Assembly (NCBI GenBank): GCA_902524945.1
Contig: CABZFF010000001.1
Span: 1 to 64,000, forward strand
Source: an uncultured Pelagibacteraceae bacterium
GTDB lineage: Bacteria > Pseudomonadota > Alphaproteobacteria > Pelagibacterales > Pelagibacteraceae
Direction of reading: 5' to 3'
Length of the DNA stretch: 64,000 nt
Shown: piece by piece, positions 9,999 through 61,005 of the stretch
Layout of the letters: every line of letters begins with the position of its first letter
Numbering within the stretch: position 1 is the stretch's first letter
The notes under the pieces: generated by a model
Databases searched by the model: none
What the model saw: only the letters and a program-made list of their open reading frames with translations
Told to the model about the DNA's origin: nothing
Made by a program: the position numbers and the translations under genes

Positions 9999-10651
9999 TA
10001 TTTTTTAATACAAATTGTAAGTCCGTCACCTATTGGAATAATATTCTTTACAACTCTACTATCTTTCTTAATGAGTGTATTGAATTCTCTTATAATATTT
10101 GTAAATTTATCATTTTTCGTGTCGTCTATAACTTCTCCGTGCCATAATACATTATCTATAACTATTAGGCCTTTTTTATTAATAAGTTCTAAACATGTTT
10201 TATAATAATTAAAGTAATTTTCTTTATCAGCGTCTATAAAAATTAAATCAAATCTTTGACTTGAGTCTCTCAATTCATCCAAACTTTCAATAGCAGGTTT
10301 TATAATTTGCTTTATTTTTTTTTCATTTGCTTTTTTATAAAATGACTGTGCTTTCATACTGAATTCAGAACTTTTATCTAAGCTGATTAGAAGACCATCA
10401 GATGGAAGGGCTAAGGCCATAGATAAAGCACTAAAACCTGTAAAACTACCTATTTCTAAAATCTTTTTAATATTAGAGATTTTAATTAGTGTTTGTAGAA
10501 ATTGTGCTTGAGAAACTGAAATCTGCAATCTTTGTTGATCACCAAGACTTGTATTGTATTGAATTATTTCTTTCTGAACATCAGTCAAAGGCTCTGAATG
10601 ATCAATAATGTATTTTTCAAGATTTTCAGTTAAATCTAATTTTTTAGGCAT
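9998..10651 (-). CDS. O-methyltransferase (class I SAM-dependent, caffeoyl-CoA OMT-like)
   Basis: ILEIGSFTGFSALSMALALP, FDLIFIDADKENYFNYY. Confidence 0.88.
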   Translation of the reverse strand: MPKKLDLTENLEKYIIDHSEPLTDVQKEIIQYNTSLGDQQRLQISVSQAQFLQTLIKISNIKKILEIGSFTGFSALSMALALPSDGLLISLDKSSEFSMKAQSFYKKANEKKIKQIIKPAIESLDELRDSSQRFDLIFIDADKENYFNYYKTCLELINKKGLIVIDNVLWHGEVIDDTKNDKFTNIIREFNTLIKKDSRVVKNIIPIGDGLTICIKK

Positions 10652-55896: not shown

Positions 55897-56946
55897 TTAA
55901 GTTTTTTTCAAAAACTTTTCTCTTATAACTCTATTCATTTTTTTTTCGAAGCAATTGAAAGAAATAAAGCTTAAAACAAAAGTTAAAATCAAGTAAATTA
56001 AAAAAGCTAGTTTCGAGTAAAGAAAGTCAACATTATTAAATAATTTCAAACCATAAAGTAAAAATAGAAAAGTTAGCGTGTGTAATAAATAAATTGAGTA
56101 TGTTAAATTTCCCAAAAAAATGAAAAGTTTTTTTACTTTTAAATTTAACGCTAATTTGTCAATTAATACAAAAATCAAAACAATACTAAAACAAAAGAGA
56201 TGTAATTTAAATGATCCAATAAAAGAAAATATAAAAAATAATAAGGAGATTAAAAATAATCTTTTAGTACTCCTAAATTTATTTAATAGAAAAAAAATAA
56301 AAACTCCAGAAAAAAACAATTTAGCAAAATCTATAAAATAAGTAAGATTTATTAATTTAATAATGAAACTTATCTCAACAAATTTTGTTTTGTCTATAAT
56401 CAAAAACATGAAATAAATTAAAAATACAATCTTAAAATTGTGTCTATTAATAAATGATATCAATACAAAAAATAAATAATAAATTGCTATTTCTTGACTT
56501 ACAGTCCAAACCGGTTGGTTAAATGATCGGCCTTCCTCAAAACCCCATCCTAATAAAAGAAAAATATTTAAAAAAAAATGCTTTAAATCATTAAATGCAT
56601 ACAGTTCATATTTTCCGAAAAATTTTAAAAATAAATATTGTAATATAAAAATTGATAAAAAAGTTAAAATATGAAGGGGGTATAATCTAGCTATCCTTTT
56701 TATACTAAAATTTCTTAATGACTCTTTTTTTTCTTGAGAAAGGTATACATTTCCAAAAACAAGACCAGATACAACAAAAAAAACAGGAACGGCATAGTCG
56801 CCATAATCATACAAAATTTCTAAATAATTTCTGAATATATCGTTGGTTTTCATTTGCATAATTTCAAAAGATGTTCCCCAATGATATATAGCTACTGCTG
56901 AAGCGCATAAAAATCTTAGTAACTCCACGCAGTAAAATTTTTGCAT
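55897..56946 (-). CDS. Acyltransferase 3 family membrane protein (OafA/YrhL-like)
   Basis: VELLRFLCASAVAIYHWGTSF, FFVVSGLVFGNVYL, RIARLYPLHIL; ~10 TM. Confidence 0.9.
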   Translation of the reverse strand: MQKFYCVELLRFLCASAVAIYHWGTSFEIMQMKTNDIFRNYLEILYDYGDYAVPVFFVVSGLVFGNVYLSQEKKESLRNFSIKRIARLYPLHILTFLSIFILQYLFLKFFGKYELYAFNDLKHFFLNIFLLLGWGFEEGRSFNQPVWTVSQEIAIYYLFFVLISFINRHNFKIVFLIYFMFLIIDKTKFVEISFIIKLINLTYFIDFAKLFFSGVFIFFLLNKFRSTKRLFLISLLFFIFSFIGSFKLHLFCFSIVLIFVLIDKLALNLKVKKLFIFLGNLTYSIYLLHTLTFLFLLYGLKLFNNVDFLYSKLAFLIYLILTFVLSFISFNCFEKKMNRVIREKFLKKT

Positions 56947-56948
56947 AT

Positions 56949-57725
56949 TTATTTTGATTTGAGCAAATTTTTTAATTTTTTTGTATAATCTTGATTGTTT
57001 TTGTAAAATAATTTTATTTCAATTTTTTTATTTAGTTTTACTGAAACTTTTTTTACATTCCTTATTTCATAATTATCCGCAACTAAAGAAATAGGTCTTT
57101 TAATATTTAGATTTTCAAATTTTAAATTGTTGTTGTTAGAAACTATTTCTCCTCTCCAGTTTTTTGGTTTAAATCCACTTATTGGGGTTAGTGCTAGTTT
57201 TTCAGAATTTAGTTTTAATAAAGGTCCTCCAACAGAATAATTGTATGCTGTGCTTCCGATTGGAGTACAAAGCAAAACACCGTCACCAACTAATTTATCA
57301 ATTACTTTTCTTTTGTTTTTAAAAATTCGTATAGAACTAGTTTGTTTTGTTTGTCTTAATAATGAGATTTCATTTATTGCATATAAAGTTGATTTCATTT
57401 TATTTGTTGATAATACCGATGCAACTAATGGGTTTAGTATTATTGACTTAGAATCAGTTATTTGTTTTTCTAAAAAATCATTTTTATAATCGTTCATTAA
57501 AAAACCCACAGTTCCACAATTAATTCCAAAAAAAGGTTTTTTATATTTATAAAGTTTTTGAATAGTTCTAAGCATAAATCCGTCACCCCCGCATACTATA
57601 ATTACATCGCATTTTTTTGGTGAAAAATTATCGAATTTTTTTAAAAATCTTTTTTCAAATCTTAAAGATTTAATATTTCGAGAAAATGTGAAATGAAGTT
57701 TTAAGTGCATCATATTATATCTCAA
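56949..57725 (-). CDS. nadK: NAD kinase
   Basis: VIVCGGDGFMLRTIQ, FFGINCGTVGFLMN, GDGVLLCTPIGSTAYNYSVGGPLL. Confidence 0.95.
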   Translation of the reverse strand: MRYNMMHLKLHFTFSRNIKSLRFEKRFLKKFDNFSPKKCDVIIVCGGDGFMLRTIQKLYKYKKPFFGINCGTVGFLMNDYKNDFLEKQITDSKSIILNPLVASVLSTNKMKSTLYAINEISLLRQTKQTSSIRIFKNKRKVIDKLVGDGVLLCTPIGSTAYNYSVGGPLLKLNSEKLALTPISGFKPKNWRGEIVSNNNNLKFENLNIKRPISLVADNYEIRNVKKVSVKLNKKIEIKLFYKNNQDYTKKLKNLLKSK

Positions 57726-57729
57726 TTAG

Positions 57730-57815
57730 TGGTGCCCTCGGCCAGACTCGAACTGGCACTCCCAAAAGGGCAAGGATTTTAAGTCCTTTGTGTCTACCAA
57801 TTTCACCACGAGGGC
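57730..57815 (-). tRNA. tRNA-Leu(TAA), CCA encoded
   Basis: GCCCTCGTGGTGAAATTGGTAGACACAAAGGACTTAAAATCCTTGCCCTTTTGGGAGTGCCAGTTCGAGTCTGGCCGAGGGCACCA. Confidence 0.96.
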
Positions 57816-57817: not shown

Positions 57818-57896
57818 ATCGTTATTTTTATTGTTATTGTTAATATATTAATACACAAGAGTTTCAAATAAGTAAAAATAATTTATTTTCCGCCTC

Positions 57897-57921
57897 TATC
57901 TTCTAGTTGTCTTCTAGTTTG
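57897..57921. repeat. Left-end motif TATCTTCTAGTTGTCTTCTAGTTTG (tandem TCTTCTAGTT), candidate recombinase arm site
   Basis: TCTTCTAGTT repeated at 11-bp spacing; related copy at 60749-60774. Confidence 0.5.
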
Positions 57922-57948
57922 TTATTAAAAATTGCTAAATTGTTGAAT

Positions 57949-58929
57949 TTATAAATTGGGTTTTTTTTCTCTCCAAATAGATCTCTTTTCCTCAAGATGG
58001 ATATTATCATCTCTTTTTTTTGTATGTCTGATATTTGTTTCAAATGATAAAGAAGAAGGAAGAGAGCGATAATTTTTACTAATAAAATCTAATATCGAAG
58101 AGTAAGATGGATAAAAATCTTCTTGTTTTTTGAAACTTATATGTTTTTTATAATTTTTAGAAAATAAACCATTGCCATCATCAAAAAATCTTTCTGTAGT
58201 TAAACCGTATTTTTCGTAAGGATAATAATTAAGATCATCTTTATTAATATGATTTACCCAGCTAGCGTAAGTCCAATATTCACCAAAAGATCCGTAAATA
58301 TTTGCAGCTTTTATTATCAATTTAATCCAATTTTGCTCAGATTTAAAATGATCTTTAAATTTCAATTTGAGACTTTTTAAGTGCTTTTTTTTAAAAATCA
58401 TATGATGTGAAGTAAATGTTCCTCTTTCATCCTCAACAGGATTAATCCCCAAAACATTGATGATTAAATTTTTCCATGAATTTAAAATATCCTGATTTCC
58501 ATAAGATTTGTCTTGTAGTAAGGCAAACTTTTCTTTTTTTTCATCAAGTATTGGCCAAGAATTAACCGGCAATAAATCGGAGTCCCATACCACAAAAACT
58601 TCATCTAATTGATCTATAGCATCATTAGCTCCAAGTTTAATAATCTGTTGGTATAGCCATCCAGGAGTGTAATTTAGTTTATTTTGAGTAATTTGAGATA
58701 CAATATCATTCTTCGTTAAACCATATTTATTTAAAAAAAAATTATCCTCGTCTAATAAAGTTAAATTTTTAATTTTCCAATAATTTAACTTGTCTTTTAA
58801 AATTTTTATCTCATTTTCTGATGTAATAACATAAATATGTTTTGGCTTGTATTTTTCATAAATACCCTCAAGTACTGATCTTGTGCTCCAAGTCACATGA
58901 TGAACAGGGATAACAAATTGATACATCAA
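57949..58929 (-). CDS. DUF6492-like putative glycosyltransferase
   Basis: TPGWLYQQIIKLGANDAIDQLDEVFVVWDSDLLPVNSW; WxSD-type DxD-like motif. Confidence 0.65.
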   Translation of the reverse strand: MMYQFVIPVHHVTWSTRSVLEGIYEKYKPKHIYVITSENEIKILKDKLNYWKIKNLTLLDEDNFFLNKYGLTKNDIVSQITQNKLNYTPGWLYQQIIKLGANDAIDQLDEVFVVWDSDLLPVNSWPILDEKKEKFALLQDKSYGNQDILNSWKNLIINVLGINPVEDERGTFTSHHMIFKKKHLKSLKLKFKDHFKSEQNWIKLIIKAANIYGSFGEYWTYASWVNHINKDDLNYYPYEKYGLTTERFFDDGNGLFSKNYKKHISFKKQEDFYPSYSSILDFISKNYRSLPSSLSFETNIRHTKKRDDNIHLEEKRSIWREKKPNL

Positions 58930-58930
58930 A

Positions 58931-60703
58931 TTAATTTAAACTTGCTTCTTTAGTGATTTTTTCATCTGTTTTAAAAACAGTAACAGGGTCTTCCAGACCC
59001 GCGTCTGAGCAAAGAGGTTCAACACCTACTCCCTTTCTTGGGTATTTTGAAACTATTAACTTATATTCCTGAATGATATTTTTTAATTCAGTTTTTGTTA
59101 GATCATTAATATATTTACACTTTCCAATGCCAGATGGAACTGGAATAGCTAAATTGCCACCTCTTTTTTGCAAAATTTTATCAAATCCTTGATTCATACA
59201 TTTTTCGTCTAATAAAATGTCATGCCACAAACTTAATTCGTATTCACTAAATAACTTAAAAATTCTATGCAAATCTTTTTCACTAATCCATCCTCTTTTA
59301 TAAGACATAAAAGAACTTAAATTCATTTCAACACTTATTGCATGTCCGTGAAGTAATCCTGCTTTAAGTTCAAAGTTTGCACTCAAACCATGACCAAAAG
59401 CATGATCTCTAATACTATGAACTTCATGTAAATTATCATATTCGCTCTCAACATAACTTTTCAAAGACAATCCAATTATTTTTTTTGATTTTGAGACGAT
59501 TTCATCTTGATGATTGCAATTAATTGTACCAAAATGAGTTTTCATTAAATCACGTCCAGTGTCTTCTAGTAAATTAAAAAGTTCTGCGTCTCTAATTACT
59601 GCCATTTTATGTATTTCAGCAATTCCATGTCGGACCCAAGAAGTTTTTAAACTTTTGAAAAATGAACGATCAGATATATTAAGCACTGGAGCATGAAAAG
59701 AACCTAAAAGATTTTTAAATCCACCAGCATCACAACACGACCTTGGACTTGGTCCACTGTCTATTGCGCTTACAACAGATGTTGACAACATTATATATGG
59801 TGTGCTTCTATGATAAATAGATGCAGCAAAAGCTCCTATATCTCCAATAACCCCTCCTCCAATTATCAGTATAGGTTCGTTTCTATTTACGCCTAATCTT
59901 CTAAAATCTTCAACTATTTTTTCAACATTTTTTATATGCTTATCAACTTCCATGGCCCTATAAATCAGTTTTTCTAAAATAATTTCATTATGATAAAAAT
60001 AATTATCAATTTCTTGTCCATAATTTTCCTCAATATTTTGGTCTACCAAACAAATACATCTTCCAAATGATTTGTAATTATCTCTTAAGAGAGGATTTTT
60101 AATATTTAATGTGTTCTCTTCTACCTTAATTGATGTAAAAGTACTTAAGTTCATGGTTGCTTCTATCTGTTGATAATCATTTGAGCTAACAACGTGACCA
60201 CTTGAATTTCTATAACTAGAAGTTGGATATAAAGCTAAAGGATTTTTTTTCTCATAATCTAAAGTAAGTTGCTTGTAAAATAAATGTTTTGAACTGCTTA
60301 ATAAATTTGAAATCAATTTTGCTTTTCCAAATTTTGTATTGCTAATTTTCGAGGATAGAAATTTTAATTCTTTTGATAAATGCTCATTAAAAGGCAAAAC
60401 GAGACAAGAAAGCTCAAGAATAAACCTTTCGGTAGATAAGTTTAAAGAAGTTTTTAGCACTCTCAAATGAGGCAAAGCCGAGATAGCATCTAATTTCAAG
60501 AATTCATTTGATATTTTGGAGTCATACGGATTTATCTCCGTCAAATTTATTAATAAACTTTCAAAATAATTATTATTTGCAAAATCCTCAATTAAATTTT
60601 GACTATTTAAATAATCTTTATTATTCAAAATAAAGTGCTTAGAAAAATTATCAATTTTTTTAAAAATCATAATCCTAAGTAAAATAATTCTGCATTGAGT
60701 CAA
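58931..60703 (-). CDS. Sugar-phosphate cyclase (3-dehydroquinate synthase superfamily, EEVS-like) with ~180-aa N-terminal extension; start may be 60670
   Basis: ILIIGGGVIGDIGAFAASIYHRSTPYIMLSTSVVSAIDSGPSPRSCCDAGGFKNLLGSFHAP, RHGIAEIHKMAVIRDAELF, DHAFGHGLS, LLHGHAISVEM. Confidence 0.85.
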   Translation of the reverse strand: MTQCRIILLRIMIFKKIDNFSKHFILNNKDYLNSQNLIEDFANNNYFESLLINLTEINPYDSKISNEFLKLDAISALPHLRVLKTSLNLSTERFILELSCLVLPFNEHLSKELKFLSSKISNTKFGKAKLISNLLSSSKHLFYKQLTLDYEKKNPLALYPTSSYRNSSGHVVSSNDYQQIEATMNLSTFTSIKVEENTLNIKNPLLRDNYKSFGRCICLVDQNIEENYGQEIDNYFYHNEIILEKLIYRAMEVDKHIKNVEKIVEDFRRLGVNRNEPILIIGGGVIGDIGAFAASIYHRSTPYIMLSTSVVSAIDSGPSPRSCCDAGGFKNLLGSFHAPVLNISDRSFFKSLKTSWVRHGIAEIHKMAVIRDAELFNLLEDTGRDLMKTHFGTINCNHQDEIVSKSKKIIGLSLKSYVESEYDNLHEVHSIRDHAFGHGLSANFELKAGLLHGHAISVEMNLSSFMSYKRGWISEKDLHRIFKLFSEYELSLWHDILLDEKCMNQGFDKILQKRGGNLAIPVPSGIGKCKYINDLTKTELKNIIQEYKLIVSKYPRKGVGVEPLCSDAGLEDPVTVFKTDEKITKEASLN

Positions 60704-60748
60704 ACTGCACTGTGTCTCATGGTGTGTTTTTGGTATTAAATCTTAAGT

Positions 60749-60774
60749 TATCTTCTAGTCTATCCACTAGTTTG
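60749..60774. repeat. Right-end motif TATCTTCTAGTCTATCCACTAGTTTG, related to left-end 57897-57921
   Basis: Shares TATCTTCTAGT and CTAGTTTG with the left-end motif, same orientation. Confidence 0.5.
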
Positions 60775-60847
60775 CGCAAATTAATTTGCCTTGATTTCTA
60801 ATATTAATTGCATGGATAAATAAAAAATTTAGGATTGATAATGTTTT

Positions 60848-60874
60848 GAGACTACCTGAGACTAACAGAGACTA
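60848..60874. repeat. Three GAGACTA direct repeats at exact 10-bp spacing, beside the right att copy
   Basis: gagactacct gagactaaca gagacta. Confidence 0.8.
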
Positions 60875-60894
60875 TTGAATTTATGAGTCCCTAA

Positions 60895-60937
60895 GATTTT
60901 AAGTCCTTTGTGTCTACCAATTTCACCACGAGGGCAC
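60895..60937 (-). pseudogene. Residual 5' half of tRNA-Leu(TAA) (43-bp direct repeat copy 2; candidate att core)
   Basis: Identical to 57775-57817; T arm, variable arm and 3' acceptor absent. Confidence 0.93.
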
Positions 60938-61005
60938 TTTTATTTTTTTCAATATATATATGACATTTATATTATTATTTAAATCTTATAAAGTATATTT
61001 ATCTA

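Follow-up and report, generated by a model that had tools for sequence, protein, structure and literature searches.

The window analysed here, a stretch of 64,000 nucleotides from an uncultured Pelagibacteraceae bacterium (SAR11), contains a sugar-phosphate cyclase (SPC) gene on the minus strand at 58931..60670, encoding a protein of 579 aa. The ATG at 60670 is the likely start and its position is common to most relatives. A frame opened at the TTG at 60703, the start taken in the initial annotation, would run into a conserved upstream element. This element (ATGAGACACAGTGCAGTTTGA, 60700..60720, minus strand) is found about 50 nt before the cyclase gene in 23/23 aligned loci with the consensus ATGAGACA[CT]AGTGC[AG][GT]TTTGA. 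It is readable as a six-codon leader, MRHSAV-stop in the window and MRHSA[VF]-stop across the loci, with ATG or GTG as start. A search of 60 Pelagibacteraceae genomes gave a single match to it, the window's own, and in Rfam the tRNA alone scored above the gathering score, with nothing at the element. A gene for a DUF6492 protein, a putative GT-A-like glycosyltransferase, is located 4 nt downstream of the cyclase gene on the same strand (57949..58926); in the ORF list of the window this gap is 1 nt, since the DUF6492 ORF opens there at a TTG one codon before the ATG. The two genes are bordered by an intact tRNA-Leu(taa) at 57730..57815 and by a duplicated 5' part of the same tRNA (nt 1-41) at 60895..60935, both on the minus strand.

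The cyclase possesses the SPC core motifs GGGVIGDIGAFAAS, RHGIAEIHKMAVI and HGHAISVEM, and the segment DSGPSPRSCCDAGG at residues 304-317 (59720..59761, minus strand); the open reading frame, the motifs and the segment were all present as the initial annotation had described them. Pfam profiles DHQ_synthase and DHQS_C matched with 75 and 54 bits. Among solved structures, the nearest was 5tpr (236 bits), titled '3-dehydroquinate synthase' in the PDB, which we take to be Anabaena DDGS (desmethyl-4-deoxygadusol synthase), followed by 4p53 (161 bits; titled 'Cyclase'), presumably ValA, an EEVS (2-epi-5-epi-valiolone synthase), while AroB structures reached at most 96 bits. In the likelihood tree, the SAR11-type cyclases formed a clade of their own (support 100/100), positioned as sister to cyanobacterial DDGS (100/99) and not nested inside it; DDGS was represented by two references, both cyanobacterial. 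The placement of the enzyme in the C7-cyclitol branch of the superfamily, suggested at the outset, is supported. DDGS, the type of enzyme with which the biosynthesis of natural sunscreens begins (MysA of Anabaena, 5tpr, and of Nostoc HK-01), is 36-39% identical to the cyclase, and the C-terminal [KS]YPR.G tail of DDGS is found in the cyclase too. EboD, whose product is uncharacterised and of cyclitol type (PMC5133447), belongs to the same superfamily but forms its own branch with an ordinary K..N segment, and no ebo-type neighbours were seen beside the cyclase gene. Purifying selection on the SAR11 sequences is strong, with an omega of about 0.06-0.12. Phage matches to the cyclase were distant and AroB-like with less than 30% identity, and PADLOC and PHROGs searches gave no result. 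The DNA pattern of GPSPR was matched on a single viral contig; this was considered as chance, as the ORFs of that contig include no cyclase.

A scan with one genome per species identified 25 relatives of the cyclase with 85-97% identity, all of them in Pelagibacteraceae records. In a sample of 297 genomes of the order, the window's genome included, nine are carriers, and the remaining matches correspond to AroB in length and identity. Outside SAR11, a full-length homolog with 49% identity was found in an alphaproteobacterium (G399), and a second one, split across two contig ends, in a member of the order of G399 (G1058); its two pieces share an overlap that differs at one place and may represent one gene or two copies. 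Both homologs are of the GPSPRT type, with DAGPSPRTCCDGFG as the corresponding segment. In these two genomes, the cyclase gene is followed by genes for an O-methyltransferase, an ATP-grasp ligase, a Ddl-like ligase and a HAD phosphatase (locus L069, 7030-14657; locus L087, 1-5017); upstream of the cyclase gene, G399 has a photolyase-related gene as well. In gene order, the O-methyltransferase and both ligases correspond to the mysA-D type cluster of Nostoc HK-01, to whose proteins they show 47-48%, 42% and 34-40% identity respectively. On the basis of this collinearity and identity, the mysA slot in sunscreen-type clusters is filled by the GPSPR-type cyclase. No paper joining SAR11 with 3-dehydroquinate synthase was found in the one library searched, an absence which is no proof of novelty, and the papers on SAR11 and mycosporines listed there appear, going by their titles and abstracts, not to be concerned with the cyclase.

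The adjacency of the cyclase and DUF6492 genes, with the 4-nt gap, is strict in the window and in 25/25 relatives. The DUF6492 protein matches PF20102, a domain-of-unknown-function family, with 42 bits and its WDxD motif, of the DxD type, is invariant; no related solved structure was found. Among 372 alphaproteobacterial genomes, matches to this protein were limited to the window's own and two others, both weak. The neighbour had been called a putative glycosyltransferase from the beginning, and the DxD motif and the general appearance of the protein suggest that it probably is one. In Nostoc, DDGS-type cyclases are also genetically linked to glycosyltransferases in the clusters of glycosylated MAAs (mysG/mysJ), in which MysG1 has a family 4 annotation and the sugar goes onto finished MAAs (PMC11378024). 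The SAR11 unit differs from them in having DUF6492 and no ligases.

The mobile island proposed in the initial annotation is borne out by the duplication of the tRNA-Leu 5' part and by empty sites within the same genus. In 4/12 same-genus genomes (L098, L099, L104 and L108), a heptosyltransferase gene abuts the intact tRNA-Leu and the pair is missing, and other genomes of the genus possess different cargo behind a tRNA-Leu fragment. Between lineages, the cyclase and the DUF6492 protein are 82-88% identical while the adjacent core TrmH is only 51-53% identical, which points to transfer. In the other loci the pair is likewise situated at the tRNA-Leu site wherever the tRNA-Leu was found, often near glucosylglycerate genes. 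In most carriers (L042-L065), a glucosylglycerate block in divergent orientation is situated near the cyclase gene; it is composed of GpgS-like, MPGP-family phosphatase and sucrose-phosphorylase-like GH13 genes. A link of the pair to these genes was set aside, considering their divergent orientation and their absence beside the window's copy. At positions 60740-60949 and 57880-57960, AGTCTC repeats were found inward of the tRNA-Leu fragment, as they were in L101, L102 and L106 too, and CTAGAAGAYAACT repeats on both sides of the pair; these repeats are possible recombinase sites. The 3.1-kb unit contains no integrase. In its tRNA site, duplicated tRNA piece and variable cargo it resembles the tycheposon-like tRNA-anchored islands of streamlined marine bacteria, but in the SAR11 unit it is the 5' end of tRNA-Leu that is duplicated and the unit is without integrase. 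Next to the island, the NAD kinase (56949-57725) showed only 44-51% identity to the copies of relatives, same genus included, while within the genus its neighbour TrmH is 78-87% identical and EF-Tu 98-99%. Possibly the NAD kinase was replaced, with an extra acyltransferase at 55897-56946.

Alongside the observed family and sister position of the enzyme, the paired genes, the island, the purifying selection and the relatives in mysABCD-like clusters, the explanation that we favour as the probable one is a mobile two-gene unit in which a DDGS-sister cyclase acts on sedoheptulose 7-phosphate and a glycosyltransferase completes a glycosylated C7 cyclitol. The cyclase would be zinc- and NAD-dependent like the known members of the family, and would convert sedoheptulose 7-phosphate to a C7 cyclitol, for example desmethyl-4-deoxygadusol or a close analogue. 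The DUF6492 protein would then put a sugar on this cyclitol. The product could serve as an osmoprotectant, as an antioxidant or UV screen, or as a surface component.

Residue conservation in the active site showed both retained and altered positions. The zinc ligands E352, H427 and H441, which are shared with DDGS, and the catalytic K355 are retained in the alignment. The segment DSGPSPRSCCDAGG replaces D-x5-K-x3-N, so that R310 stands for the lysine and D314 for the asparagine; this K..N pair is kept in every AroB, EEVS, DDGS and EboD compared (16/16 reference SPCs), whereas the cyclase clade has R and D, and GPSPRS is invariant across 26/26 SAR11 sequences. In the columns which we take as the DDGS fingerprint E/A/T (Glu254, Ala268 and Thr347 of Anabaena DDGS, confirmed in the alignment), the cyclase has the DDGS residues at E410 and A424, while the third column has K502 instead of the T of DDGS or the H of EEVS. 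The N-terminal domain (about residues 1-165; 60176..60670, minus strand) belongs to no recognised family. It is common to the G399 and G1058 homologs and absent from canonical DDGS, EEVS and AroB. Malic enzyme was dismissed as a relative of this domain, as its matches were at E about 0.3. An AlphaFold model with 11 close relatives as input had a pLDDT of 35, hence the active site was placed by alignment; a search of viral contigs for sequences with which to deepen the model's input found none.

Given the changed active-site residues and an N-terminal domain of no recognised family, the reaction may be a new one. It is conceivable, though as a tentative proposal only, that the GPSPR-type cyclases constitute a new SPC class with a remodelled pocket and an N-terminal domain of its own, serving a mobile two-gene pathway to a glycosylated C7 cyclitol in SAR11. 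Less probable, and on the whole unlikely, is a new SPC activity in the sense that the enzyme takes another heptulose or hexose phosphate or forms a product unlike those of EEVS and DDGS. The changes of K to R and N to D, the lysine in the third fingerprint column and the additional domain argue for it, and the label 'DDGS?' has already been given to an uncharacterised clade related to DDGS, possibly the present one, for which a different activity was suspected (PMC5133447). Yet G399 and G1058 share GPSPR and have the gene in clusters of mysABCD-like type, for which 4-deoxygadusol chemistry is an expected requirement.

The initial annotation had read the cyclase as EEVS-like, associating the GPSPRT-type segment with these enzymes. 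In favour of this reading, EEVS and DDGS have superfamily, fold and probable substrate in common and ValA is the second among the solved relatives of the cyclase. However, a joint clade with EEVS was rejected (p-AU 1.5e-4), and the residues L/D/H, which we take to be the EEVS fingerprint (ValA Leu267, Asp281 and His360, columns confirmed in the alignment), are absent. The EEVS references carry ordinary K..N segments of DAGIGxKTGVN type; GPSPR is therefore not an EEVS mark. Sites discriminating EEVS from DDGS do exist according to an eLife paper in which the letters are given in a figure only (PMC4426668). Given the rejected clade, the absent fingerprint, the K..N segments of the references and the homologs in mysABCD-like clusters, an EEVS is rather improbable, and DDGS-sister is the better description of the enzyme. 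The phylogeny with references, proposed along with the annotation, upheld its exclusion of AroB while moving the enzyme from EEVS to a place beside DDGS.

The homologs in mysABCD-like clusters also raise the question whether the SAR11 pair contributes a single step to sunscreen (gadusol/mycosporine) biosynthesis, the remainder being supplied in trans by other SAR11 enzymes, for instance by an O-methyltransferase at 10010-10510. A shorter O-methyltransferase, with a domain 36-40% identical, is indeed found elsewhere in the genome of 8/9 carriers. But this protein of about 222 aa covers only part of a MysB-like protein and is unlinked to the island, and no homolog of the ligase MysC was found in the nine carriers. 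Beside the SAR11 cyclase gene, in difference from DDGS clusters, no O-methyltransferase or ATP-grasp ligase gene is present and DUF6492 takes the place of mysB/C as partner. Such an in-trans completion is accordingly very improbable. It is scarcely credible that the cyclase duplicates AroB as a further 3-dehydroquinate synthase, a name which annotation pipelines may give to it as Pfam and NCBIfam profiles of that enzyme match it, for a clade with AroB was rejected (p-AU 5.5e-5), the NCBIfam aroB profile gave 150 bits against a cut-off of 305, and a canonical aroB with the segment DSAIGGKTGVNS, whose best PDB matches are all DHQ synthases, is present separately on contig C7. The cyclase is thus not the sole aroB of the genome, and the earlier view that it is no AroB is confirmed.

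SAR11 are the most abundant bacteria of the surface ocean and their genomes are streamlined. A minority (9/297 genomes in the sample of the order) nevertheless hold on to a two-gene unit that looks dedicated to a glycosylated cyclitol, and exchange it, and some SAR11 cells may produce a sugar-bearing ring compound that the group is not yet known to contain. If the favoured reading of a DDGS-sister cyclase working with a glycosyltransferase is true, the surface ocean's metabolite pool would include a further possible compatible solute or photoprotectant, and the SPC superfamily would gain a clade of enzymes that is related to DDGS but has altered catalytic residues.
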